From: Caproiciproducens faecalis
GTDB lineage: Bacteria > Bacillota > Clostridia > Oscillospirales > Acutalibacteraceae
Length of the DNA stretch: 64,000 nucleotides
Reading direction: 5' to 3'
NCBI RefSeq assembly: GCF_019448085.1
Contig: NZ_JAGFNZ010000006.1
Coordinates: 1-64,000 of the forward strand
Every line of letters starts with the position of its first letter. Position 1 is the first letter of the stretch. A program made the position numbers and the translations under genes. The notes beneath the pieces were generated by a model. That model made no database searches, was not told the origin of the DNA, and worked only from the letters and a program-made list of their open reading frames with translations. Positions 49,703 to 64,000 of the stretch are shown here, one piece after another.

Positions 49703-50416
49703 TTACTGCCGTTTCCGGCATATTCCAAAACCAATTGCTTTCTTGGGGCATCCATCGACGCATTCGAGACAGTTTATACATTCAACAGAATCCATGTTTC
49801 CTGATTTAACCATATCAGATATGCTCAGACCCATAGGACAGTTCCCGCTGCATTTTCCACAGGAAACGCAGTCGTCAGGTTTTGCTTTCAGCCTGAATCT
49901 CGGGATGTGAAGCAGATCTGCAAGCTTTTCGCCGATAACCATGAATGGAGCCATCCAGCAGAGACTGTGGCACATTCCGCGTTTGCCGGTCAAAAGCGTG
50001 AACAAGTAGATTACAGTCATAACAATTGCATAAATGATAATATACTGCATATCAATGTTCACTAAATACAGGAAATCTCCTTTGAGTGGCCCGTTATGTA
50101 CCCATAGAAATACAATGAACGAAAACCAAACCGCCCAGATAATGTATTTAGAGAGGTTTTTTCCTTTACTGTTCCAACTGCGATTGTTGGCACTGGAAAC
50201 ATAGTCCTGTACCGCGCCGCCTGGACAAAGCCAGCCGCAGAACAGACGGCTGCCGACGATTGAAAACAGCAGGAGCAGCCCAAAAATCACTGCGCTTCCA
50301 TTCAGCATCCCTTTTTCCGCAGACAAAATGATCACCATAGGCGATAAAAAGAAAAATGTTATCGGGAACATCAGCGCGGAAAAAGCCAATAGACCTTTAC
50401 GAACCCTCTGTCTCAT
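49703..50416 (-). CDS. NapH/CcoG-like membrane polyferredoxin
   Basis: 237 residues. About four membrane helices; a cytoplasm-facing FCGWLCPGGAVQD motif after helix 2 (typical of NapH/RdxA proteins), a CHSLCWMAPF motif after helix 4, then two [4Fe-4S] sites CVSCGKCSGNCP and CINCLECVDGCP. It moves electrons across or along the membrane. Together with the adjacent flavodoxin this suggests a small electron-transfer module. The start overlaps the padR stop by one base (TAATG). Confidence 0.88.
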   Translation of the reverse strand: MRQRVRKGLLAFSALMFPITFFFLSPMVIILSAEKGMLNGSAVIFGLLLLFSIVGSRLFCGWLCPGGAVQDYVSSANNRSWNSKGKNLSKYIIWAVWFSFIVFLWVHNGPLKGDFLYLVNIDMQYIIIYAIVMTVIYLFTLLTGKRGMCHSLCWMAPFMVIGEKLADLLHIPRFRLKAKPDDCVSCGKCSGNCPMGLSISDMVKSGNMDSVECINCLECVDGCPKKAIGFGICRKRQ

Positions 50417-50979
50417 TACAAATCAGTTCCTTTTTCTGAAATTATTTTTTTTGCCTCGACAGCCCAATCTTTCATTGCAGAATAGATATAAACACCGCAG
50501 AGCGCAGTTAGCTGGCTATAGGTGCAGTCTGTGTCCTGCTCTTTGAGTTGGTCAAAAAGCTCGATATAACCATTCATGTCCTTGACCAGCTTTTCATTTC
50601 TTCTGATAAAATTGTCCAGATGCCCGAGCAGTACCTCTGGCTCAGTATTTTCGCCGAAGGAAACCTTGAGAAGTATTTCATATCTGAGTTTCTCAATCTC
50701 AGGCTCCTCACGCAGCCAATCCGAAAGCTCTTTCCTGCCGGCGTCAGTTATGCTGTATACGATCTGCCCGCGGCCATTGCCAGTTTCGGTATCGTCGGAA
50801 CTGACGGCAAGACCCTCGGCAACCAGTTTTTTGAGAGTAGGGTATATCTGACCGAAACTTTCCTGCCAGAAATGACTATATTCTTGCTCGATCCATTTTT
50901 TTATTGTATAGCCTGTTTGCGGCATACGCGCCAGCATTCCCAGTACTACATATTTGGATTTTCCTGTATTTTCCTTCAT
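50416..50979 (-). CDS. PadR-family transcriptional regulator
   Basis: 187 residues. N-terminal winged helix (YVVLGMLARMPQTGYTIKKWIEQ, best seen as LGMLARMPQTGYTIKKWI; SFGQIYPTLKKLVAEGL; GRGQIVYSITDAGRKEL wing) and a C-terminal Vir-type helical dimer domain. As first gene it probably controls itself and the two redox genes, in response to an unknown ligand. Confidence 0.92.
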   Translation of the reverse strand: MKENTGKSKYVVLGMLARMPQTGYTIKKWIEQEYSHFWQESFGQIYPTLKKLVAEGLAVSSDDTETGNGRGQIVYSITDAGRKELSDWLREEPEIEKLRYEILLKVSFGENTEPEVLLGHLDNFIRRNEKLVKDMNGYIELFDQLKEQDTDCTYSQLTALCGVYIYSAMKDWAVEAKKIISEKGTDL

Positions 50980-52655: not shown

Positions 52656-52994
52656 CTATTGCATCGACTGACATTCTTGCGCACATTTTTTGCATTGTGC
52701 AGCACATTTAGCACAATGATCGTCTTTAAACGCTCCACATTCTTGAGCACATTCGTCGCAGATAGTTCCGCAAAGTTTACATAAATTTGTAGCATGGCAA
52801 GAATCCATAATCATAAATTTTGCGGATTCATGGCAAATAGAGATACACTCGTTTAGTTTGGCAATACACTTCTTTCTATTTGCTACATCAGGTTCTTCAA
52901 GACACATTTTCATACATTCAAGACACGCCTGTGCGCATTTGTTACATTCATCAATGCAAGTTTGATTTTTATTATTCATATTCACAATTCCCAT
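52656..52994 (-). CDS. Four-helix-bundle copper-binding protein (Csp/DUF326-like)
   Basis: 112 residues with about 20 cysteines in CxxxC/CxxC spacings on predicted helices (CIDECNKCAQACLECMKMC, CKLCGTICDECAQECG, CAKCAAQCKKCAQEC). This is the pattern of copper storage proteins that fill a helical bundle with Cu(I)-thiolates. No signal peptide, so a cytosolic form. SD AAGGAAG is upstream. The next gene downstream is the helical protein, 214 bp away; co-transcription is possible. Confidence 0.9.
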   Translation of the reverse strand: MGIVNMNNKNQTCIDECNKCAQACLECMKMCLEEPDVANRKKCIAKLNECISICHESAKFMIMDSCHATNLCKLCGTICDECAQECGAFKDDHCAKCAAQCKKCAQECQSMQ

Positions 52995-53051: not shown

Positions 53052-53140
53052 GCAAAACAGGGGCTGCCCGAAAAGGCAGCCCCTGTTTTCACGTCGTTGG
53101 TTCCGTTTCTTAAACCGCTGTGCAGATGAGGAAAACCACG
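53052..53140 (-). repeat. Degenerate copy of the tRNA-linked repeat
   Basis: The hairpin AAAACAGGGGCTGCC / GGCAGCCCCTGTTTT (53054-53089) and the following text (CG-GTTGG-TCC-TTTCT-AAACCGC-GT-CAG) match the first about 85 bases of units A and B, at roughly 70% by eye. A CCACCGGCAC string, as in the tRNA acceptor end, follows at 53163-53172 inside the permease gene. On the minus strand the hairpin could terminate the permease transcript. Confidence 0.7.
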
Positions 53141-53144
53141 TTTG

Positions 53145-53900
53145 TCATTTGAGCGGCGTGCTCCACCGGCACAGCAGACCGGAAAGCAAATCGATAGCAA
53201 CAAACAATGCAAAACCCACAATGGAAATCACAACAATTCCAATATACATATCAATATAGTCAATTCTTGACCACGCGTCCAAAATATAATATCCCATACC
53301 GTACTTCGTTCCGTAACCCTCCACAAAGAACAGGATGGACACCGCGGTTCCAAGCGAAACCCGGACGCTGGTGAGCAATTCCGGCAAAATGGCGGGAAGG
53401 GTGATATGGCGGATAATCTGCGCACGACTTGCCCCGGCGCTTACCGTTACAAGATATACCGAAGGGTCAATATTGCGCACGCTGTCCCTTGCGGAAACAA
53501 TCACCTGAAATACGACAATAAGAAAAATAATGGCGACCTTGGAACCGTCCCGCATACCCCAAAGCATCATGGCAACCGGCAGAAGCGCGGTCTTTGGGAT
53601 GGGATAACTGAAATAGATAAGAGGATACAGGATCTTATTGGCATTTTCCGAATACGCCATTAAGATTCCAACGGGAACCCCTACCGCGAGCGAAAGCGCC
53701 AGGCCGGCTCCGATTCTTTTTAAACTAAATAGAATATGGATAAAAATTTGACTTGCGAAAACAGTTCCGAAATTCTGATAAATCGTAATCGGACTTGGAA
53801 TCACGGTCGTTCTCATGATCGCAAATGCCAGATACCAAATGATGTTTAAAAGAAGAAATCCCTGCAAAAAGATCAGGCATTTATTCAGCAGTCTGTTCAA
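53145..53900 (-). CDS. SsuC-like ABC importer permease
   Basis: About 251 residues from a TTG at 53900 with GGCGGGG upstream (an ATG at 53918 without SD is the alternative). Six hydrophobic segments and an EAA-like loop (SAGASRAQIIRHITLPAILPE) mark the nitrate/sulfonate/taurine importer class. The last codons overlap tRNA-like sequence of the degenerate repeat, so the C-terminus may have been altered by that event. It completes the ABC importer at the end of the EET/quinone gene run. Confidence 0.85.
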   Translation of the reverse strand: MNRLLNKCLIFLQGFLLLNIIWYLAFAIMRTTVIPSPITIYQNFGTVFASQIFIHILFSLKRIGAGLALSLAVGVPVGILMAYSENANKILYPLIYFSYPIPKTALLPVAMMLWGMRDGSKVAIIFLIVVFQVIVSARDSVRNIDPSVYLVTVSAGASRAQIIRHITLPAILPELLTSVRVSLGTAVSILFFVEGYGTKYGMGYYILDAWSRIDYIDMYIGIVVISIVGFALFVAIDLLSGLLCRWSTPLK

Positions 53901-54672
53901 TCCAGCCCCGCCTTTCATCGTCCGGCTTTAATTTCTCATGTAAGGTTCGTTTAGCCGCAAGGTAATCTACAGATTCCGGGTTTGAGTTCCCGAAGTAGGG
54001 ATTCTTCATCCGATACTGAATTTCACCGTGAGAAGTCCCCATAACCACAACCGTATTCCCCAGATACAGCGCTTCTTCAATGCTGTGGGTCACCAGAACC
54101 GTGGTGGGCCGGTTCCGGTTCCATATGCGCAGAAAAAGTTCCCGGGCATCCTGACGGGTAATGGCGTCCAAAGCGGAGAAAGGTTCATCCATCAACAACA
54201 AATCCGGATGAAAAACGAATGCCCTTGCAAGCGCGGCGCGCTGAACCTGTCCGCCGCTCAGCTGCGCGGGGTACCTTTGCAGCAGCTGTGAAACGTCCAG
54301 AGCCTCATAAATATCGCTTATCTCCCGTTCCCGCTCTTCGGTTATCGGTTCTCTGCGCAGTTTCAGCGGAAGGAGGCAGTTGTCCCTGACGGTTTTCCAC
54401 GGCAGCAGCCCACAGTTTTGGGGGATCACTCCGATTTTATGCGTTTTCGGGTTCAGCGGCTGCCGCCCGTTTTCTGTGACGAAATCCGCGCTGCCGCTGT
54501 CGATTGGGAGCATTCCCGCCAGAACGTTGATTAGCGTTGACTTACCGCATCCGGAAGGCCCGAGCACGGCAAGGACTTCCCCCTGTTCCATTTGCAGGGA
54601 AAGCCCGTCAATAACCGGCACTCTTCCTTTTTTCGTTCTGTAGCTGACCGATAAATTCTCTATTACAAGCAT
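53881..54672 (-). CDS. SsuB-like ABC importer ATPase
   Basis: About 263 residues. Walker A LGPSGCGKST, signature QLSGGQVQRAALARAF, Walker B LLLMDEPFSALD, H-loop VTHSIEEAL. It belongs with the SsuB/TauB/NrtD group. The ATG at 54672 has GGAG 6 nt upstream. Overlaps the permease gene, so the two products form one importer. Confidence 0.92.
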   Translation of the reverse strand: MLVIENLSVSYRTKKGRVPVIDGLSLQMEQGEVLAVLGPSGCGKSTLINVLAGMLPIDSGSADFVTENGRQPLNPKTHKIGVIPQNCGLLPWKTVRDNCLLPLKLRREPITEEREREISDIYEALDVSQLLQRYPAQLSGGQVQRAALARAFVFHPDLLLMDEPFSALDAITRQDARELFLRIWNRNRPTTVLVTHSIEEALYLGNTVVVMGTSHGEIQYRMKNPYFGNSNPESVDYLAAKRTLHEKLKPDDERRGWIEQTAE

Positions 54673-54696
54673 CTTTTTCTCCATGAAATTCTGCTG

Positions 54697-55665
54697 TTAC
54701 GATCCGGAATAAACGTCGTACACCATCTGGTCATACTGCAGCGTTGGTTTACACAGACCCTTTTTGCTTGCCCACTGAACGGCGGCCTCGACCTCCTGTT
54801 TTTGGGGAAGCTTGCTGGTGCGGAAGGGTTTCACCGTGATTTTCCCGATCATTTCTTCCGGGTAGCCTACGGCCTTGATTACGGTTTTCTCATACTTGCG
54901 GATATCAGTATGATTCATATAGTCCACGGCTTCGTTATAGGCTTTGTAAAGATTGTGAATCGCGGCGGACTTGCTGTCCAGCGCGGTCTTGGAAAACGCG
55001 GAAACCGCCGGGTACAGACCGAACTGATTGGCGCTGCCCAGACGGACGGCGCCGTCGTTCAGTGCGAGGGTGGCAAAAGGCTCCGGCAAAAGCCCGAGGT
55101 CGATCTTGTTGTTGCGCAGCAGTTCAAGACGATCCGGAATCTTCGGCACAATCTCTTTCACCACATCATTGCCGGTCATGTTATTATTGCTTAAAATATC
55201 TTCCAGCGTATATTCAATCAGCGTTTTTTCAGAAATCGCAATGCTTTTCCCTTTAATCTGATTAATATTTTTAATGCCCGTGTCTTTGCCCGCGACAAGG
55301 ATGTAATCCCCGTCGGTAATACCGGTAATTTTCACATCCAGCCCGGCGTTCTGGTACATGCACACGCCGATCAGGTCGGTCAGCACGCCGTCCAGTTCCC
55401 CTGCCTGCAAAGCGGCGTCCCTGTCCTTTGCGGAGGTGAACACCTCCAGATCAAGCTGGAAACCGTATTTGTCGGCAAGCTTGTTTTCATTGATAAGAAC
55501 ATAAGGAATCACATCAGAAGACGACATCATCCCGATGCGGATCACCGGTTTTTCGGGATTGCCCGAGGAGCTGCCCGCGGCGCTGCTCACAGCACTCTGA
55601 GGGGCGCACCCTGTCGCCAAAACCATTATTAGAAGAACAAAAACTGCTATTATTTTATTTTTCAT
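54697..55665 (-). CDS. ABC importer substrate-binding lipoprotein (NMT1/SsuA-like)
   Basis: 322 residues. Signal peptide with lipobox LATGC (Cys20), Ser-rich linker, then a two-lobed NMT1/SsuA-type domain (KPVIRIGMMSSSDVIPYVLI, AGELDGVLTDLIGVCMYQ, LLPEPFATLAL). These receptors bind small anionic or aromatic molecules; the ligand here is unknown. Because the gene overlaps ubiX by 11 bp and follows the ubiD-ubiA genes, an aromatic quinone precursor is a reasonable guess. MqnA, a futalosine-pathway enzyme, shares this fold, but it lacks a lipoprotein signal. Confidence 0.9.
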   Translation of the reverse strand: MKNKIIAVFVLLIMVLATGCAPQSAVSSAAGSSSGNPEKPVIRIGMMSSSDVIPYVLINENKLADKYGFQLDLEVFTSAKDRDAALQAGELDGVLTDLIGVCMYQNAGLDVKITGITDGDYILVAGKDTGIKNINQIKGKSIAISEKTLIEYTLEDILSNNNMTGNDVVKEIVPKIPDRLELLRNNKIDLGLLPEPFATLALNDGAVRLGSANQFGLYPAVSAFSKTALDSKSAAIHNLYKAYNEAVDYMNHTDIRKYEKTVIKAVGYPEEMIGKITVKPFRTSKLPQKQEVEAAVQWASKKGLCKPTLQYDQMVYDVYSGS

Positions 55666-56242
55666 GGTTTCCTTCCCACCTTTGATAACAATTATTTTCG
55701 ATTTCCAGACTGTCCAGCACTTTCCCCGCGACAAAGCCGAGGATTTCGTCCAGCGTCTGCGGATGCCCGTAAAACCCCGGCATAGCCGGTAAAATCGTTA
55801 CGCCGAGTTCTGAAAGTTCGGTCATCCTTCTGAGATGCAATGTGGACAGCGGCGTTTCCCTTGGAACCAGCACCAGCTTTCGCCGTTCTTTTATCATAAC
55901 GTCAGCCGCACGGGTCAAAAGCGTTTTGGTAATGCCGCAGGCGATTTCAGCCACAGTGGACATGGAGCACGGCAGAACCGCCATGGCATCGCAGCGGTAG
56001 GAACCGCTGGCAACCGGGGAAAACAGGTTTTCGTTATCCTCGAGAATAATATCGGCTTTGCTTTTGTTCCAGAGCTGAGTCTGTTCCTCCAGAATCACCC
56101 CGGTTTCGTACGTCAGCACCTTCCGGCCCTGCTCGGAGGCAATCACATGGATTTCCAACTCCTGCTGCGCCAGCGTTTCCATCACGCGCAGAAAATACGC
56201 GCTGCCGCTCGCCCCTGTAATTCCTACTATGATTCTTTTCAT
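55655..56242 (-). CDS. ubiX: UbiX-family flavin prenyltransferase (MqnM-like)
   Basis: 195 residues. GITGASGS (8-15), the PCSMSTVAEIA loop and the VPRETPLSTLHLRRM signature are all present. UbiX joins dimethylallyl phosphate to FMN, making the prenylated FMN cofactor of UbiD. It sits in the same run as ubiD and ubiA; the set matches the late steps of the futalosine menaquinone route. Confidence 0.95.
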   Translation of the reverse strand: MKRIIVGITGASGSAYFLRVMETLAQQELEIHVIASEQGRKVLTYETGVILEEQTQLWNKSKADIILEDNENLFSPVASGSYRCDAMAVLPCSMSTVAEIACGITKTLLTRAADVMIKERRKLVLVPRETPLSTLHLRRMTELSELGVTILPAMPGFYGHPQTLDEILGFVAGKVLDSLEIENNCYQRWEGNHEK

Positions 56243-56253
56243 TTTGTGCCTTT

Positions 56254-57123
56254 CTAAACAAAAGCATCCAATAGCCCGAACACCAGCAATACAATGCTGA
56301 CAAGCTGGTTTACGCTGTAGGACGCAATATTAACGTTAGTCAGATTCGTCGGCGAGACCATGCGGTACTCCGTGACAAACAGAGCGGCAATGATCGCTAC
56401 GCCCACATCATAAATAAAACCGAACTGCGGAACAAGAAGCCCGATGATGACCAAACAAATCAGCGTGACGGTATGAAACAGCATGGCGATGCGCAGGGCA
56501 TTCTTCACACCGAACGTGACCGGAATGGAGTGCAGCCCGTTTTTTGTGTCAAAGTCATAATCCTGAGAGCCGTAGATAATATCGAATCCGGCGACCCACA
56601 GGGTGTTGGCGGCGCCCATAAAGAGCGGAACCAGCTCCAGCTTTCCCGTTACGGCCAGCCACGCGCCCACCGGCGCACAGGCACAGGTAACGCCAAGAAT
56701 CAGATGACACAGAAAGGTAAACCGCTTGCAGTACGAGTAAATAATCAGTAAAAACAGAGCGACCGGCGACAGGGCAAAGCAGACCCAGTTCAGGCGATAC
56801 GCTCCGTAAAGCATCACGAGGAAGCAAACGGCCGTAAATACGACCACCTCGCCCGTTTTCATTTCTCCTTTGGGAATTTGGCGGCCGGCCGTACGGGGAT
56901 TCTTTGCGTCGATCTTTGCGTCGATTACGCGGTTGATTGCATTCGCGCCGGTACGCGCGCCCAGAAAACAGACCACAATCCAGAAAACCGTAGAAATGCT
57001 CGGAAGGCCGTTTGCAGCCAGCACCATGGAGACCAGCGCGAAGCTGAAGGAAAAAATCGTATGCGAAAACATTACCAGTTTTCCGTATGATCGAATCTTT
57101 TCAATCAATTTAGTCAATGCCAT
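56254..57123 (-). CDS. UbiA-family prenyltransferase, MqnP-like
   Basis: 289 residues with about eight or nine membrane helices. Two Asp-rich sites: NAINRVIDAKIDAKNPRT (61-78) and DIIYGSQDYDFD (181-192). The RTAGRQIPKGE stretch is typical of the 4-hydroxybenzoate-type branch, which includes MqnP. It prenylates an aromatic acid in the membrane. Its 5' end overlaps ubiD by 14 bp. It differs clearly from the MenA/DmkA-like enzyme encoded at 62026-62928. Confidence 0.92.
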   Translation of the reverse strand: MALTKLIEKIRSYGKLVMFSHTIFSFSFALVSMVLAANGLPSISTVFWIVVCFLGARTGANAINRVIDAKIDAKNPRTAGRQIPKGEMKTGEVVVFTAVCFLVMLYGAYRLNWVCFALSPVALFLLIIYSYCKRFTFLCHLILGVTCACAPVGAWLAVTGKLELVPLFMGAANTLWVAGFDIIYGSQDYDFDTKNGLHSIPVTFGVKNALRIAMLFHTVTLICLVIIGLLVPQFGFIYDVGVAIIAALFVTEYRMVSPTNLTNVNIASYSVNQLVSIVLLVFGLLDAFV

Positions 57124-58810
57124 ATTCGTTCCACCTTTTGTCGACCTGCCGCTTCATGGCGCCCGTCATGACAATGTCATCCGGCCACTCCCGGGTCAGG
57201 CCCTCCTGCTTCCATTTTTTTGTTGCGTCCACACCGATTTTAAAATCGATGACTGCAATGTCTCTTTTTGCGTCTATATTGTTAAACACCTTCCACATGA
57301 CGGTGGAAAGGTCTCTGGAATCCACTTCCTCATCCACCACGATCACAAATTTGTCCGGGTGGTTCCACAGGTAATTTTCGACTAGCTCCCTGCCCTTCCA
57401 TGCGCGGTCCTTGCGGATGCGCAGGATTTTAAAGGTATTCGTCACTTCTTCATTAAATCCCCTAGTAAGGCTGGCAGCGTCAATGCCCAGCCGGCACCCA
57501 AAAAGCGGCCGGTTGGAGGAATGGTCCAGTGCGTCCAGCGGGCCCTCCGAAAAAAGCAGGCTCTGAGTCCCGTTGACATTTTTGAGCACCGCGTCCCGCA
57601 CGGCGGCAAGGTCCTGCACGTCCACCGATTCGTCCACCGTGACGATCAGCTTGGTGTACATCATCTGCCCCATGCCCCAGATGGCGTTCATCACTTTGCG
57701 CGCACAGCCGGGGTATTTGTTTTTAATCGAAACAATGGCGCAGTTATGAAAGACCCCTTCCAGCGGCAGGTTCAGATCCACCAGCTCCGGAATCTGCATC
57801 CGCAGCAGCGGCAGAAAAATACGTTCCGTCGCCTTTGCCATGTAGCAGTCCTCCATCGGCGGTTTCCCGACAACCGTGGCGGGATAGACGGCTTCCCGTT
57901 TATGGGTGATGCAGGTCACATGGAACTTCGGATAATAGTCCGCAAGGGAATAGTACCCGGTATGGTCGCCGAACGGTCCCTCCAGAACGGGTTCCTCCGT
58001 GGGATCGACATAACCCTCCAGCACAAATTCGGCGTCCGCGGGAACGTATATGTTATTCGTAACGCATTTGACCATTTTTACTCCGGATTTGCGCAGCCAG
58101 CCAGCCAGCATCATTTCATCCAGCATTTTCGGCAGCGGCGCGGTAGCCGCGTAGGTAACCGCGGGGTCGCACCCCAGAGCCACCGAAACGGGCATCTTCA
58201 GGTTCTGCTCCGCGTAGCCGCGGTAGATTTCGGAGCCGTCCTTATGTTTGTGCCAGTGCATGGCGGTGGTGGTGCTGTCAAGGACTTGAAGCCGGTACAT
58301 TCCGCAATTTTGCCGTTTGGTTTTCCGGTCGCGGGTAAAGACAAGGGGCAGGGTGATAAACGGCCCCGCGTCCTGCGGCCAGCATTTCAGTACGGGCAGG
58401 GAGGATAAATCCACGAATTTTTCCACAACCTGCTGGCATTCTCCCCGCAACAGGCTTTTTCGAGGAAATACGCTTAAGAGACGGAGCAAACGGGGAACAC
58501 TTCTTAACAGCCCCAAAACGGACAGGTTATCGGCGATATCCAGATACTTCTGGATATCGTCCGCAATATCGTCCAGCTTTTCCGCACCCAGAGCCATGCT
58601 CATCCGCTTGTAGCTTCCCATTGCGTTCATCAGAACGGGATATCGTGAGCCGTTTACCTCCCGGAAAAGCAAAGCCGGGCCGTTGGCCTTGGAAACACGG
58701 TCGGTAATTTCCGTAATTTCTAATTCCGGCGATACGGGAGCTTCAATGATTTTAAGCTCCCCGCTTGTTTCCAATTTTCTGATAAAACTCTGAAGGCCTT
58801 TGTATGCCAC
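57110..58810 (-). CDS. ubiD: UbiD-family decarboxylase, MqnL-like
   Basis: 566 residues. prFMN/metal-site residues are visible: NCGMYRLQ (Asn168...Arg173), and EGPFGDHTGYYS (about 277-288) with the catalytic Glu/Asp/Glu set. It decarboxylates a prenylated aromatic acid. The start is GTG at 58810, giving the family-like N-terminus (M)AYKGLQSFI, with GGGGA upstream; the GTG at 58825 has no SD. Needs the UbiX product encoded two genes downstream. Confidence 0.92.
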   Translation of the reverse strand: MAYKGLQSFIRKLETSGELKIIEAPVSPELEITEITDRVSKANGPALLFREVNGSRYPVLMNAMGSYKRMSMALGAEKLDDIADDIQKYLDIADNLSVLGLLRSVPRLLRLLSVFPRKSLLRGECQQVVEKFVDLSSLPVLKCWPQDAGPFITLPLVFTRDRKTKRQNCGMYRLQVLDSTTTAMHWHKHKDGSEIYRGYAEQNLKMPVSVALGCDPAVTYAATAPLPKMLDEMMLAGWLRKSGVKMVKCVTNNIYVPADAEFVLEGYVDPTEEPVLEGPFGDHTGYYSLADYYPKFHVTCITHKREAVYPATVVGKPPMEDCYMAKATERIFLPLLRMQIPELVDLNLPLEGVFHNCAIVSIKNKYPGCARKVMNAIWGMGQMMYTKLIVTVDESVDVQDLAAVRDAVLKNVNGTQSLLFSEGPLDALDHSSNRPLFGCRLGIDAASLTRGFNEEVTNTFKILRIRKDRAWKGRELVENYLWNHPDKFVIVVDEEVDSRDLSTVMWKVFNNIDAKRDIAVIDFKIGVDATKKWKQEGLTREWPDDIVMTGAMKRQVDKRWNEYGID

Positions 58811-58853
58811 TCGCGCATTCCCCACTTGCTAATTAGTTTTTGAATCCGTGAAT

Positions 58854-59900
58854 TTAATTTTTAATATATTTTTCCTGGAAATGGTCACTGTATTTGATCT
58901 CACCGTCCGGAAAAACCCATAGCGCCTCTGTATTCGGAAGGGTTCTGAGATAGGCCAGCCCCTGCTCATACGGCACGTTGAAAATCAGCTTGCAATAGAT
59001 GTCCGCCATACCGGAATCGGGGGTGATAATGGTAACAGCTTTAAAATAAGTTGACGGCATCAGCGTTTTCGGATCAATGATATGGTGGTAGGTCTTTCCG
59101 TCCACGGTATAATACCGCTCATAAATCCCGCTGGTCACAACAGATTCATCCTGAATGTTGATCGTACAGAGGGATTTTTTGTCGCTTCCCTTATCCGGAT
59201 TCTGAATTCCCACATTCCATTTCTCATTATTGACGCCCTTGCTGCCAATGGCCCGCACATTGCCGCCCACGCTGAGGAGCGCGGATTTGTAGCCGTGTTC
59301 CATTGCGATTTTGGCGACCTGCTCCGTGGCGTAGCCCTTAGCGATTCCGCCGACATCCAGGCTCATTTTCGGGTCCTCAAGGTACACCGTGGAGGCTTTT
59401 TCATCGATGATGACCTTATTGATATCTGTGTGCGTCATGGCCTCTTTCAAGTCGGCCATCGGGGGCAGCGCAGCGTTTTCCGGATCGTCTATCCCCGCTT
59501 CCCTGTATTGATGCCAAATTTTCAGCACCGAACCAAGCGCAATATTGAAAGCGGCGCTGTCGCTGGCGCTCTCCTTTTTGCCCAGAAGAAGCATATCAAT
59601 AATTTTCTTATCTACTTTGACAGGCTTTTTCCCCGCATTGTCATTAATCGTCTTAATGTTGTTGATGCCAGGGTAGTCGTTATAGATATCGTAAAGCTCA
59701 TGGTAAACCTTTAAGTTATTATAAATCAAATTGGAAAGGTTTGTAAACTCTTCTTTGGTTTCCGTATAAGCCACAATTTGCGTCATTGTGTCAAAAAGCT
59801 GTAAGAATTGAGCTTCATAGCGTGTTTTCTTGCTGGTATTGCAGGCCGGGAGCTGAAGCATCAGCGCAACGGCAAGAATCGCAGAAATCAGTCTTTTCAC
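58854..59900 (-). CDS. apbE: Lipoprotein FAD:protein FMN transferase (FmnB/ApbE)
   Basis: 348 residues. Lipobox LPAC (Cys20) places it outside the membrane. ApbE domain: LFDTMTQIVAYT, MSLDVGGIAKGYATEQV, GGNVRAIGS, TSGIYERYYTVDGKTYHHIIDPKTLMP. It should attach FMN to PplA, encoded just upstream in the run. GTG start with GAGGTGG upstream. This is the second ApbE in the window; the first (42270-43334) belongs with Rnf. Confidence 0.94.
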   Translation of the reverse strand: MKRLISAILAVALMLQLPACNTSKKTRYEAQFLQLFDTMTQIVAYTETKEEFTNLSNLIYNNLKVYHELYDIYNDYPGINNIKTINDNAGKKPVKVDKKIIDMLLLGKKESASDSAAFNIALGSVLKIWHQYREAGIDDPENAALPPMADLKEAMTHTDINKVIIDEKASTVYLEDPKMSLDVGGIAKGYATEQVAKIAMEHGYKSALLSVGGNVRAIGSKGVNNEKWNVGIQNPDKGSDKKSLCTINIQDESVVTSGIYERYYTVDGKTYHHIIDPKTLMPSTYFKAVTIITPDSGMADIYCKLIFNVPYEQGLAYLRTLPNTEALWVFPDGEIKYSDHFQEKYIKN

Positions 59901-59914
59901 CAGTTTTCCACCTC

Positions 59915-59948
59915 AAAAAATGGAGAGGTAGAAATGAATCTACCTCTC
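59915..59948 (-). terminator. Attenuator-like hairpin between the PplA-like gene and apbE
   Basis: GAGAGGTAG / CTACCTCTC stem, followed by CATTTTTT on the minus strand. It sits in the 77-bp gap after the lipoprotein gene and would make the upstream lipoprotein transcript more abundant than the downstream part. Confidence 0.7.
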
Positions 59949-59977
59949 ACGAATCACTTTGTCAATTGAAGTTCCGA

Positions 59978-61045
59978 TTATTTCGCGCTGGAAACAGCCT
60001 CATCAATGATCTTGATAAAGTCGCCGACATGTACGGTAACGGAAGCAGTCAGTTCCTTATCGGTTGCTTTGCCTTCAGAGTCAACAGCAATGCCCTTGAC
60101 TTCGTCCAGAGTTTTGCCAACTACATACTTAGCAAAAGATGCAGCCTCTTCGTTCCACTCTTTGCCGATCTTGGAAGCCTTCTTCATGCCGTAAGCATCG
60201 CCCAGCTCGTTCTTTGTCTTCTGCTCTGCTTTCAGGTCAGACGTAATCTTGCCCGCTTTGGAGAAGTTTACGTTGGTCTGAGAAGCGTCGATGATGCAGC
60301 TGGTGATTTTGCCGTCAGCGCCGGTTGTGGTAACGGTGTAGTAGGAATAAGCCTGTGCAAGGCCGTCCTTGTCACCGGCATCTTTGGAGCCGGAAATGCT
60401 GGTCTGGATACCGAGGCCCAGTTTGTCGTCTGCTTTTGCACCGTTGTCAGCTGCGTTGGCAACTGCCTTCTCAACGCCGGCAATGAAATCGCCTACATGG
60501 ATAGTAACGGAAGCGGTCAGTTCCTTATCGGTTGCTTTGCCTTCCGCGTCAACGGCAATGCCCTTGACTTCGTCTGCGGTTTTGCCGACTACATAGCTTG
60601 CGAAAGCGTCAGCCTGCTCGTTCCATTCCTTCTTGATGCCGGAGGCTTTGCCCAAACCGTACTCTGCGCCGAGTTCCTGCTTGGACTTCACAACGGTGTC
60701 AAGCGGAGTCGTAATTTTGCCTGCGTCGGAGAAGTTTACTTTGCTCTGTACTGCGTCGATGAGGCACTTTACGATTTTGCCGTCCTTGTCAACCGCAACG
60801 GCGACGACGGTGGAATCTGCCTCTGCAAGGCCTTTTCCGTCTTTTACATCTGTGGACTTCGCGATAGAGGTAATGACAGCCAGACCTGTTTTCAATGTAC
60901 CGGTTGCTGCGGCAGATTCAGCTGCCTTTGAGCTTGCTGCCTGAGAGGCCGGTGCGGCGGAACTGGCAGTGGTAGATGAGCCGCATCCCGCAAAGCTGAC
61001 TGCGGTGAGTGCTGCGGCTAAGAATACTGCTAATGCTTTTTTCAT
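59978..61045 (-). CDS. pplA: PplA-like extracellular lipoprotein, two flavinylation domains
   Basis: 355 residues. Lipobox FAGC (Cys21), Ala/Ser-rich linker, then two tandem repeats of about 145 residues (51-196 and 209-352), each with GLA-x-AxS, (K/Q)T(N/K)VNFS-x-AGKIT, K-x-ELG-x-YG, and KEWNEx-A. Each ends with DKELTASVT(I/V)HVGDF (173-187 and 329-343), where a Thr or Ser is the likely FMN acceptor. In Listeria PplA carries two FMNs and passes electrons to extracellular iron or flavin. Start at 61045 with GGAGG upstream. Symbol by analogy. Confidence 0.85.
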   Translation of the reverse strand: MKKALAVFLAAALTAVSFAGCGSSTTASSAAPASQAASSKAAESAAATGTLKTGLAVITSIAKSTDVKDGKGLAEADSTVVAVAVDKDGKIVKCLIDAVQSKVNFSDAGKITTPLDTVVKSKQELGAEYGLGKASGIKKEWNEQADAFASYVVGKTADEVKGIAVDAEGKATDKELTASVTIHVGDFIAGVEKAVANAADNGAKADDKLGLGIQTSISGSKDAGDKDGLAQAYSYYTVTTTGADGKITSCIIDASQTNVNFSKAGKITSDLKAEQKTKNELGDAYGMKKASKIGKEWNEEAASFAKYVVGKTLDEVKGIAVDSEGKATDKELTASVTVHVGDFIKIIDEAVSSAK

Positions 61046-61066
61046 ATTTTCCTCCAAAATTTTTAT

Positions 61067-61612
61067 TTATTTACTTAAGCCGACCTTTTTTAGTGCCGGC
61101 AGAGTAACCTTGAGTAATGTTGATGTCGCTGCGCCCGCAATAATGCCGGAAATCAGCAGTACCGGGGCATAGGCCCACAAAAACATATTGGTATATAAAA
61201 CGGAAACTGCAGCCATCTGCCCGATATTGTGAAAGACTGCGCCCAAGATACTAATCATCAGATAAGAGATTCTTTCCTTGAAGAGAAACAGAAACAGGAC
61301 CATGCCCAGCACGGAAAGCAGTCCGCCGCAAAAACTCAGCAGTGCCGCGACTGCGCCCCTGGTCAGAAAGACAAAGAGCGATTTCAGCACCGCCAGAAGC
61401 AGCGCCTCCCTTTTTTCAACAAAGAAAAGGGAATACATCACCACGATGTTTGACAGCCCAAGCTTCACGCCGGGAACGGGCACGGGAATCTGCAGCTGGT
61501 TCTCTACCACAGACAGGACAAGAACCACCGCAAACAGAAGGCCCGTCAGAACCATCCGCTTAATCCGCAGAGAGTTGATTTCACGTTTTGTCAGGTTTTT
61601 TTCTTCAGCCAT
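61067..61612 (-). CDS. Gx-transporter/EetB-like membrane protein
   Basis: 181 residues, five to six membrane helices. The VPVPGVKLGLSNIVVMYSLFF segment (PVPGVKLGLSNIVV) and the FHNIGQMAA motif are typical of the Gx transporter family, also annotated as heptaprenyl diphosphate synthase component I and related to ECF S-components. It always accompanies the NusG-II protein in flavin-based EET loci; the molecular role is unsettled. Confidence 0.88.
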   Translation of the reverse strand: MAEEKNLTKREINSLRIKRMVLTGLLFAVVLVLSVVENQLQIPVPVPGVKLGLSNIVVMYSLFFVEKREALLLAVLKSLFVFLTRGAVAALLSFCGGLLSVLGMVLFLFLFKERISYLMISILGAVFHNIGQMAAVSVLYTNMFLWAYAPVLLISGIIAGAATSTLLKVTLPALKKVGLSK

Positions 61613-61621
61613 TCTGTTTCC

Positions 61622-62011
61622 TCATCCAATCACGGCATCCAGATCGTCGGAACTGCGCTGATCCTTCGCCACTATTTTCATCACGATACCGTTCGGCAGA
61701 CAAGCGGCGCTTTCACCGATGGTGTGAAGCCTGCCCGCATGTATGCAGATTTTATCGGGGCAATTGGATTCCTCAAAGCAGATGCTACCGTCCTTAAAAA
61801 CGTGAAAAACCACATTTCTATTTTGCTCAATTGAAAAGTGCTTATCCACTCCCGCCGTCAGATCAACCGTTTCCACCAGTTCTGATTTGTAAAAGATTTC
61901 GGCTTTCGCCGCTTTCTTTCCGGCAATGGTCTGGTAGGTAAACCACGCGGCCACACAAAGGACGACCGCAACGGCAAGAATAATAAGATCGGTTTTTTTG
62001 ACAAATTTCAT
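61622..62011 (-). CDS. NusG domain II membrane protein (EetA-like)
   Basis: 129 residues: one N-terminal helix (about 8-27) and an external NusG-II domain with the conserved EESNCPDKICIHAGRL and CLPNGIVMKI stretches. It pairs with the neighbouring membrane protein in EET loci. The two Cys (in NCPDKIC) could form a disulfide. Confidence 0.88.
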   Translation of the reverse strand: MKFVKKTDLIILAVAVVLCVAAWFTYQTIAGKKAAKAEIFYKSELVETVDLTAGVDKHFSIEQNRNVVFHVFKDGSICFEESNCPDKICIHAGRLHTIGESAACLPNGIVMKIVAKDQRSSDDLDAVIG

Positions 62012-62025
62012 TTATATTTCCGCCT

Positions 62026-62928
62026 TTAGCTTAAAAAACCGCCGACAAATATCAGCAGGCTGTTGGTACCCACAAGTATAACATAATTCTGAACCGAAAG
62101 GACAAACGTTTCTTCTTTTCGCTGTTTCTTTCTAAACCGGTCAATATGATTTCTGATGGGTACAATCGTCAGCAGGGTTAACAGACAGACAGAAGGCAGA
62201 ATTTTCAAAAGGACCATCAGGATAACCGAGAGATACGAAAGGTAGTACAGCCCGGCAAATACGGGCAAAGCGTTTTTGCCAAGGTAATATGGAAGGGTAT
62301 ATCTTTTCACCTGAATATCCTTTTCCAGATCGCAGAGATTGTTAGCGAGCATGATGTTCGCGGTCGCACAGGCCGGCAGAACCGACAGCAGCACGAGAGA
62401 AACAACCGGAAAAAGATTTACATCCAGATGAATCGTTTGAAAATCAAACGCAAATGTAAAGAATGTCCCCGCGGGCATATTGATGTAAAGCAGAAGAAAA
62501 GGGATGAATAAACCGTAGAACACGCCGGAAAAGAGCTCCCCAAGCGGCTGATGTGACAGCGGAAGCGGGCCCCAGGAATAGAGCAGACCGAACAGAAAGC
62601 ACAGTCCGCCGAAAAGCAGCACCGCCGCGTCAGTCAGGAAAGCCAGCGTCAGCCCCAGAGCGGTACTGACTGCGAAAAGCAGGTAAATCATCGCTTTCGC
62701 CGTTGAACGGCGAAACGGCAGTGTTTCCCCCGCCGACTTGGCACCTTCATAGTTGTTGATTGCCGTAGCGGTCAAATCAAACAGGAGCATGGCACCGAAA
62801 AAGAGCAGAGTCAGTTTCCAGTTGACCGGCTGCTTTCTGTAAAAAAGATACGCAAGCGCCGTCAGAAAAGCAAAGACACTGGTTATTTTCGTCCGCAGTT
62901 CCACAAAATTCAAAAATCTTTTCAGCAT
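62026..62928 (-). CDS. MenA/DmkA-like 1,4-dihydroxy-2-naphthoate prenyltransferase
   Basis: 300 residues, about nine membrane helices, UbiA superfamily. First Asp/Asn site DLTATAINNYEGAK (about 51-64), second NLCDLEKDIQVKRYTLPYYLG, which is typical of the MenA branch. In Listeria DmkA makes a demethylmenaquinone used by Ndh2 for EET. Lies 5 bp after the polyprenyl synthase gene. Confidence 0.9.
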   Translation of the reverse strand: MLKRFLNFVELRTKITSVFAFLTALAYLFYRKQPVNWKLTLLFFGAMLLFDLTATAINNYEGAKSAGETLPFRRSTAKAMIYLLFAVSTALGLTLAFLTDAAVLLFGGLCFLFGLLYSWGPLPLSHQPLGELFSGVFYGLFIPFLLLYINMPAGTFFTFAFDFQTIHLDVNLFPVVSLVLLSVLPACATANIMLANNLCDLEKDIQVKRYTLPYYLGKNALPVFAGLYYLSYLSVILMVLLKILPSVCLLTLLTIVPIRNHIDRFRKKQRKEETFVLSVQNYVILVGTNSLLIFVGGFLS

Positions 62929-62933
62929 TGCTT

Positions 62934-63914
62934 TTATAACCCGCGGTGAGCTTTATTCAGAATGAACATCAGCCTTTCTTTCTTACTGTCGGAAGCGCTG
63001 AGCTCCCGGATAATTTTAAAGGCTTTGTCGTAATATTTTTTAGAAACCGCTTTCGTGTAATCCAGGCCGCCGGTTTGTGTGACAGCGGAGTTGATTTCCT
63101 CTCTGGAGACTTTCTCTTCCCTCGCCTTTTGCTTGAATGCGGTAAGATTCTGCAGCGCATAAATCAGAGGAAGGGTGATAACCCCCTGCTCGTAATCCGA
63201 CTGAACCGGCTTTTTAGCCAGCTGAAGCGGCGCCTCAAAATCAATGCAGTCGTCGGTAAGCTGAAAGATCATGCCGATCAGGTGACCGAGACGCATATAT
63301 TTCTCCACCGAATCCTTTTCCTCTTCGCAGAGGATTGCCCCGGCGTAAAAGGAAGCCTCGAAAAGAGCCGCAGTTTTCCCGGAGATAATTCTGAGATAAC
63401 TTGCAACGGAAAGATCCAGATTGTAATTATTCTGATTCTGTCTTAATTCTCCAAGACAAATTCTGGTCATGTAATCGGGAATATTGAAATCCACATAATC
63501 CCTTTTGTTCGATATGGAAGAAGCCTGCTCCAGAGCCAGACAGAACAGATAGTCCCCGCAGATAACAGCCGTACGTTTTCCGAATTTTTTCTGGAGAGTG
63601 ACAAAGCCCCTGCGGAGATCGGCATTGTCAATCACGTCGTCGTGAACCAGAGTGGCAAGATGCAGAATTTCAATCGCAGACGCAAACTTGACTGCGTTTG
63701 GATGGATCTGCCCTTCCCTGTTTTCGGCACAGGCAAGCAAAGCGTGAGAACGAAGGAACTTACCCCAGGAATGAGTCAGGTGCTGAGTATAATTGCGGAT
63801 GGGTTTAGGAGAGGCAGACAGTAATCTGCCCACCTCCTGTTTTACACATTCCACCGCGTCGTCATAAGTGAGGAACTCAACCGCGGCATTCTCTGTAGCA
63901 AGTTCATTAATCAT
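62934..63914 (-). CDS. Polyprenyl diphosphate synthase (DmkB-like)
   Basis: 326 residues. First Asp-rich motif LVHDDVIDNADLRRG (about 90-104), second QLTDDCIDF (about 218-226), with the GKTAALF stretch between. It makes the isoprenoid chain for the prenyltransferases encoded next to it. The ATG at 63914 overlaps the end of the upstream gene by 8 bp; the SD (AAGGAAG) is 13 nt away, so translation is probably coupled. Confidence 0.92.
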   Translation of the reverse strand: MINELATENAAVEFLTYDDAVECVKQEVGRLLSASPKPIRNYTQHLTHSWGKFLRSHALLACAENREGQIHPNAVKFASAIEILHLATLVHDDVIDNADLRRGFVTLQKKFGKRTAVICGDYLFCLALEQASSISNKRDYVDFNIPDYMTRICLGELRQNQNNYNLDLSVASYLRIISGKTAALFEASFYAGAILCEEEKDSVEKYMRLGHLIGMIFQLTDDCIDFEAPLQLAKKPVQSDYEQGVITLPLIYALQNLTAFKQKAREEKVSREEINSAVTQTGGLDYTKAVSKKYYDKAFKIIRELSASDSKKERLMFILNKAHRGL

Positions 63915-64000
63915 TGTAAATATATAGCTTCCTTACAAATTTAACGTTTTTCCAGTGTTTCTTCAGATACGGCATTGCATAATAGTCCAGGCCAAAGACT
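63907..64000 (-). CDS. C-terminus of a probable Ndh2-type NADH dehydrogenase (partial)
   Basis: The last 31 codons of a gene entering from the right edge read ...GLDYYAMPYLKKHW... and end LYIYND. A basic, aromatic C-terminal tail like this is what I expect for the EET-type Ndh2, which has extra membrane helices, and gene order in EET loci supports it. The fragment is too short to prove the family. Confidence 0.45.
   Translation of the reverse strand, partial: VFGLDYYAMPYLKKHWKNVKFVRKLYIYND

Follow-up and report, generated by a model that had tools for sequence, protein, structure and literature searches.

A ubiD-ubiA-ubiX-ssuABC cassette beside the flavin-based electron transfer genes of Caproiciproducens faecalis: a candidate salvage route for quinone precursors

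At the end of a 64,000-nucleotide stretch of the Caproiciproducens faecalis genome (assembly GCF_019448085.1, contig NZ_JAGFNZ010000006.1, positions 1 to 64,000; hereafter the window), a gene set for flavin-based extracellular electron transfer (EET) is followed by a six-gene cassette, ubiD-ubiA-ubiX-ssuA-ssuB-ssuC, that joins homologues of the late menaquinone enzymes MqnL, MqnP, and MqnM to an ATP-binding cassette (ABC) importer. Salvage of quinone precursors is the cassette function for which there is strong genomic support. Its genes belong to known families, and the EET locus that it adjoins is of a known kind; the cassette itself is conserved and apparently undescribed. No account of it was found in the literature searched, with most subscription journals and preprints outside the reach of the search; the first-pass annotation of this DNA likewise knew of no EET locus with such an extension.

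Gene content of the locus

The minus strand carries 13 genes in the order ndh2, dmkB, dmkA, eetA, eetB, pplA, apbE, ubiD, ubiA, ubiX, ssuA, ssuB, and ssuC (Table 1); all those listed in the first-pass annotation are present, and in that order. Spacing ranges from a 38-bp overlap (ssuB/ssuC) to a 77-bp gap (pplA/apbE), with further overlaps at ubiD/ubiA (14 bp) and ubiX/ssuA (11 bp) and a 28-bp gap between apbE and ubiD. The window edge cuts ndh2, which is complete just beyond it. Each of the 13 genes shows purifying selection (dN/dS 0.04–0.15), and both the EET locus and the cassette recur in four further members of the genus; the arrangement is therefore not due to chance.

Table 1. Features of the EET locus and the adjoining cassette, in window coordinates
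Feature	Position	Strand	Basis or remark
ndh2 3' end, type II NADH dehydrogenase with C-terminal membrane part	63907..64000	-	whole gene L011 908-2974, 688 aa
dmkB, polyprenyl diphosphate synthase	62934..63914	-	PF00348 1e-53
dmkA, MenA-type prenyltransferase	62026..62928	-	MenA-like; motif-1 Asp changed, NNYEGAK for NNYxDxK
eetA, NusG domain II	61622..62011	-	PF07009 2e-21
eetB, energy-coupling factor (ECF)-like membrane protein	61067..61612	-	PF07456 1.8e-36
pplA-like lipoprotein, two internal repeats	59978..61045	-	position and homologues; no family model
Terminator-like hairpin and T-run, pplA/apbE gap	59915..59948	-	conserved in five genus members
apbE/fmnB flavin transferase	58854..59900	-	PF02424 1.7e-66
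ubiD, MqnL-like decarboxylase, duplicated C-terminal segment	57110..58825	-	TIGR03701 632 bits, cut-off 496; alignment to E. coli UbiD
ubiA, MqnP-like prenyltransferase	56254..57123	-	PF01040; MqnP_DT 291 bits, ubiA_proteo 123 bits; both Asp motifs
ubiX, MqnM-like flavin prenyltransferase	55655..56242	-	NF004685 222 bits, cut-off 188
ssuA-like substrate-binding lipoprotein	54697..55665	-	PF13379 (NMT1_2); TIGR01728 below cut-off; AlphaFold model pLDDT (predicted local distance difference test) 89
ssuB-like ABC ATPase	53881..54684	-	PF00005 6e-31
ssuC-like ABC permease	53145..53918	-	PF00528 1e-16
Strong intrinsic terminator 3' of ssuC	53054..53087	-	follows the last cassette gene

The flavin-based EET gene set, consisting of Ndh2 with its membrane part, EetA, EetB, PplA, ApbE/FmnB, DmkA, and DmkB, is complete in this one locus. 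The same genes make up the flavin-based EET (FLEET) locus of Listeria monocytogenes and Lactiplantibacillus plantarum, a comparison made through the loci of relatives rather than against the Listeria sequence. Unlike that locus, the present one continues into the cassette, and related EET loci carry the cassette in place of dmkA. PplA matches no Pfam or NCBIfam model; the call is based on where the gene lies, on a lipoprotein start and two internal repeats in the protein, and on homologues found at the corresponding point of other EET loci.

The cassette enzymes

UbiD passes TIGR03701, the menaquinone biosynthesis decarboxylase (MqnL equivalog) model, which all 16 cassette UbiDs match. Three positions aligned to E. 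coli UbiD (Arg, Glu, and Glu), with a presumed catalytic role in this family, are invariant in these 16 proteins. In the genus and in the nearest cassettes (L084–L086), but not in other cassette UbiDs, the C-terminal segment is duplicated and occurs near residue 392 and again near residue 492. UbiA has both Asp-rich motifs, and all three MqnP models score it well above ubiA_proteo.

In the futalosine route, MqnP, MqnL, and MqnM are predicted to prenylate and decarboxylate 1,4-dihydroxy-6-naphthoate, and in that work their genes were confined to genomes that carry the Mqn pathway (Ravcheev and Thiele 2016, PMC4746308). UbiA, UbiD, and UbiX homologues are common to those genomes and to the cassette; here, in contrast, the mqnP/L/M-like genes occur without MqnA/MqnD and beside an importer.

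The importer

SsuA is a lipoprotein by sequence, and the solved folds nearest to its model are organic-anion binders for sulfonates, taurine, and pyrroloquinoline quinone (PqqT). Sequence and structure searches return SsuA, TauA, PqqT, and Thi5 as nearest, at an identity below 20% that does not decide ligand specificity. The importer shares its fold and its gene set (binding lipoprotein, ATPase, and permease) with SsuABC, TauABC, and PqqT-type systems. It differs from them in falling under all curated sulfonate, taurine, nitrate, and related cut-offs (SsuA_fam 93 vs 163.5 bits; SsuC 69 vs 347) and in its linkage to quinone rather than sulfur genes. In the comparison with L015, synonymous divergence (dS) is 0.34–0.46 for ssuB and ssuC (window 53145-54684) and about 0.6–1.3 for most of the locus, which suggests recombination in these two genes.

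Distribution and co-occurrence

Eleven genomes of the genus, including that of the window, divide into five that have Ndh2 and the EET locus, with the cassette always at the same site, and six that have neither. Three of the four other carriers keep the identical 13-gene order and one lacks dmkA. Across 391 Clostridia, an SsuA profile search matched 33 genomes; the strongest SsuAs mostly adjoin ubiA, ubiX, or ubiD, and some have these several kilobases off. A scan of a collection of named genomes gave 80 SsuA-relative loci (of 270 relatives), found in Clostridium, Herbinix, Sedimentibacter, Geosporobacter, Caproicibacter, Anaerotruncus, Acetivibrio, Ruminiclostridium, Caloramator, Thermoanaerobacterium, Fervidicola, and Oceanirhabdus as well as in the Bacilli Natronobacillus and Amphibacillus. 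The gene set is conserved over many clostridial families and two Bacilli, and the proposed combination of an EET locus, Mqn-type late quinone enzymes, and an importer is itself conserved in relatives. The lack of conservation that the first-pass annotation would have taken as refutation is therefore not what is seen.

All open frames at the 80 loci were clustered without reference to EET genes. The cassette members lead (SsuA 80, SsuB 68, UbiA 66, SsuC 66, UbiD 60, UbiX 56), followed by one aminotransferase-like and one peptidase-like frame that travel with a subset of loci, and then by dmkB (21), ndh2 (20), apbE (16), eetA (11), eetB (10), and pplA (7); dmkB, ndh2, apbE, eetA, and eetB are the commonest functional neighbors outside the cassette. 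By tblastn, UbiA is found in 67 loci, 22 of them with EET genes no more than about 10 kb away. Many cassettes lie apart from EET genes, a point that the first-pass annotation overlooked.

Co-occurrence was assessed in 80 class-sample Clostridia genomes, 78 of them Ndh2-bearing and two (G255, G277) added as cassette genomes. Their UbiA-family proteins form two groups by PF01040 score, MqnP-like (178–204 bits) and MenA-like (at most 116 bits). A strong SsuA is present in 20 of the 21 genomes with the MqnP type and in one, G201, of the remaining 59. In G201 the SsuA gene lies at the edge of a contig with ubiX next to it, and in G330, the MqnP genome for which no SsuA was listed, a fragment of SsuA is found at such an edge. 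When every SsuA match is counted, MqnP occurs in 20 of 30 SsuA genomes versus 1 of 50 others. Some UbiA-family protein is found in all 64 genomes that are at least 90% complete, and in eight of the 80 the MqnP-like type is the only one.

Absence of ring-making genes

The genome of the window (97.4% complete) has no MqnA/MqnD (PF02621; best match 21.7 bits) and no MenD (best match 73 bits vs a cut-off of 244). These negatives cover part of the mqnA-E and menA-I set that the first-pass annotation proposed to look for, MqnB, MqnC, MqnE, MenB, and MenF not having been searched. The PF02621 match (L001) was rejected as an ABC binding protein beside a permease, and the MenD matches as acetolactate synthases. 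Among 21 class-sample genomes picked for SsuA, six have one PF02621 match each (22–47 bits), none a convincing MqnA/MqnD, and 38 named genomes outside the Negativicutes reach at most 33 bits; the same search returns nine Negativicutes at 190–244 bits as a positive control. MenD is absent from all 24 further genomes. Because both MqnA/MqnD and MenD are lacking, the naphthoate very likely comes from outside the cell.

Several Negativicutes (L160, L167, L179, L183–L189) carry an SsuA relative without UbiD, UbiA, or UbiX, alone or with SsuBC. Where searched, they have a single strong PF02621 gene, and no second strong one (MqnD) was found. In Sporomusa and Propionispora this gene sits between radical S-adenosylmethionine genes that resemble mqnE and mqnC, names presumed here from a reading of the sequences.

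Replacement and possible decay of dmkA

In EET loci the cassette tends to replace dmkA, a pattern overlooked in the first-pass annotation. The gene is present in 5 of 29 EET loci with a nearby cassette (one in an Oscillospiraceae metagenome-assembled genome and the other four in the window's genus), absent from the other 24, and present in 13 of 14 loci without one (Fisher p = 3e-6, uncorrected for shared ancestry). The exception among the 14 (G027, another genus of the family, assembly 83% complete) has its cassette on another contig, and the MqnP-like gene is the only UbiA-family gene found there. Genome-wide family searches found no MenA-like gene in G228, G330, G368, G401, or G004. In G004 (98% complete, one contig), dmkA has been deleted down to a C-terminal remnant that sits between dmkB and eetA, and the MqnP-like gene is the sole UbiA-family gene; its genus mates G000, G002, G008, and G010 have two each, dmkA and the MqnP-like gene. 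In G261, which has the order ndh2-eetA-eetB-dmkB-ubiD-ubiA-ubiX-ssuB-ssuC, the cassette lies directly 3' of dmkB. Cassette species without dmkA include Caproicibacter fermentans (L122), Acetivibrio ethanolgignens, and Anaerotruncus massiliensis.

Where dmkA persists beside the cassette, it may be decaying or changing its role. In the window and two genus mates (comparison including L012, L013, L014, and L015), the motif Asp is replaced by Gly, while it is retained in the DmkA of G008 and all other EET DmkAs examined. Loss of DmkA activity is only a suggestion because purifying selection persists: in the window comparisons omega is about 0.10 for dmkA versus 0.06–0.07 for ubiA. Given this constraint, decay of dmkA into a pseudogene is not proven.

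Proposed function and alternatives

Taken together, these features make the cassette a probable salvage system for a naphthoate of outside origin, with 1,4-dihydroxy-6-naphthoate the likeliest substrate; in this locus it would serve EET as a backup to DmkA or a replacement for it. The futalosine head pathway ends in 1,4-dihydroxy-6-naphthoate. Released by other bacteria, this soluble compound would be bound by SsuA and imported by SsuB and SsuC. The MqnP-like UbiA would then attach a polyprenyl chain made by DmkB, and the MqnL-like UbiD, with prenylated flavin mononucleotide (FMN) from UbiX, would remove the carboxyl group to give demethylmenaquinone. Here and in many other Clostridia the quinone would carry electrons from Ndh2 to EetA/PplA. 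The 6-naphthoate is the simplest candidate because the substrate must follow the missing ring-making steps and must need both prenylation and a separate decarboxylation.

Several points weigh against this proposal: (i) at 45 of the 67 UbiA-bearing cassette loci no EET genes lie within about 10 kb, which makes EET just one of the uses of the cassette; (ii) UbiA falls under every MqnP cut-off, its best score being 291 bits vs 430; (iii) the SsuA score threshold was chosen after inspection of the data, and the co-occurrence and dmkA counts ignore shared ancestry; (iv) tblastn could miss a divergent dmkA in the most distant EET loci; (v) the dmkA retained in the window remains under selective constraint (omega about 0.10–0.14), so that the cassette is not the only possible source of quinone here; and (vi) the hairpin after pplA argues against simple co-transcription of the two halves.

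Of the alternatives, the same machinery could act on another ring, either 1,4-dihydroxy-2-naphthoate or one of its soluble derivatives or else an aromatic acid like 4-hydroxybenzoate, yielding a different prenylated (hydro)quinone or phenol. This is unlikely, even with a UbiA that, besides failing the MqnP cut-offs, matches PRK12888, annotated as a 4-hydroxybenzoate prenyltransferase family, at 276 bits, and even with free 2-naphthoate known as an exchanged precursor on which a quinone auxotroph can run EET (PMC10746273). UbiD exceeds the menaquinone-specific TIGR03701 cut-off and lies far under that of the ubiquinone-type PRK10922 (390 vs 788 bits), and a prenylphenol route would need ring hydroxylases for conversion to a quinone, which the cassette lacks. 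MenA-type enzymes process the 2-isomer without UbiD or UbiX, so that for this isomer the extra decarboxylase would be pointless.

It is improbable that the importer takes up riboflavin or a flavin or thiamine precursor (in the manner of RibXY or ThiXYZ) to supply FMN for UbiX and ApbE, with the neighborhood alone suggesting a naphthoate. SsuA does belong to the NMT1/THI5-like superfamily and both enzymes need flavin, but the importer tracks MqnP rather than the EET flavin genes (of the 59 sampled genomes that bear Ndh2 but no MqnP, 58 have no strong SsuA), and the majority of cassette loci lack apbE nearby. A catabolic UbiD/UbiX pair that decarboxylates aromatic acids without any tie to quinones, as VdcBCD-type members of these families and the 208-bit match of UbiX to VdcB might suggest, is very improbable given a UbiD far under the VdcC cut-off (247 vs 650 bits), a prenyltransferase adjoining UbiD/UbiX in nearly all loci, and the association with ndh2 and dmkB.

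A stronger form of the salvage proposal, for and against which the evidence seems evenly poised, would make the cassette a dedicated, modular 1,4-dihydroxy-6-naphthoate salvage system containing the first recognized menaquinone-precursor importer. Many Clostridia without ring synthesis would thereby run electron export on material from futalosine-pathway neighbors, with DmkA displaced and dmkA decaying or deleted in the window's genus.

Importers of soluble menaquinone precursors have been expected to exist, with transport genes that "remain to be annotated" (Ravcheev and Thiele 2016, PMC4746308), and Fenn et al. described quinone-dependent gut bacteria without a known transporter. The quinone auxotroph L. 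plantarum uses exogenous 1,4-dihydroxy-2-naphthoic acid (DHNA) for EET by an unidentified route of incorporation, and its dmkA is largely dispensable (PMC9888254, PMC10746273). Gut and environmental anaerobes need exogenous quinones or their precursors, and the cassette supplies candidate importer genes in cultured species. With genes named, precursor uptake, cross-feeding from futalosine producers to EET users, and precursor control of anaerobic respiration become directly testable. Annotation is also corrected, as cassette genomes would otherwise score as partial futalosine pathways or sulfonate importers.

Transcription and neighboring features

The single transcription unit proposed in the first-pass annotation is weakened by a perfect 10-bp hairpin and T-run in the pplA/apbE gap, though one transcript is still possible by read-through. 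The hairpin is kept in all five EET-bearing genus members, and L030, a relative whose EET locus has no adjoining cassette, carries at this position another hairpin, also strong but different. Because of this conserved element, the operon may be split or attenuated between pplA and apbE. An RNA family search near seven loci found no family tied to the cassette and no FMN riboswitch.

The membrane-part insert of Ndh2 (L011 908-2974) contains DATSSATTT and DAISSATT, which resemble ApbE flavinylation motifs, and similar motifs recur in Ndh2 proteins of relatives; Ndh2 could itself be a flavinylated protein. Past the locus lie a Csp1-like Cys-rich protein (52656-52994) and a NapH-like Fer4 membrane protein with a PadR regulator (49703-50979), all possibly redox or metal related.

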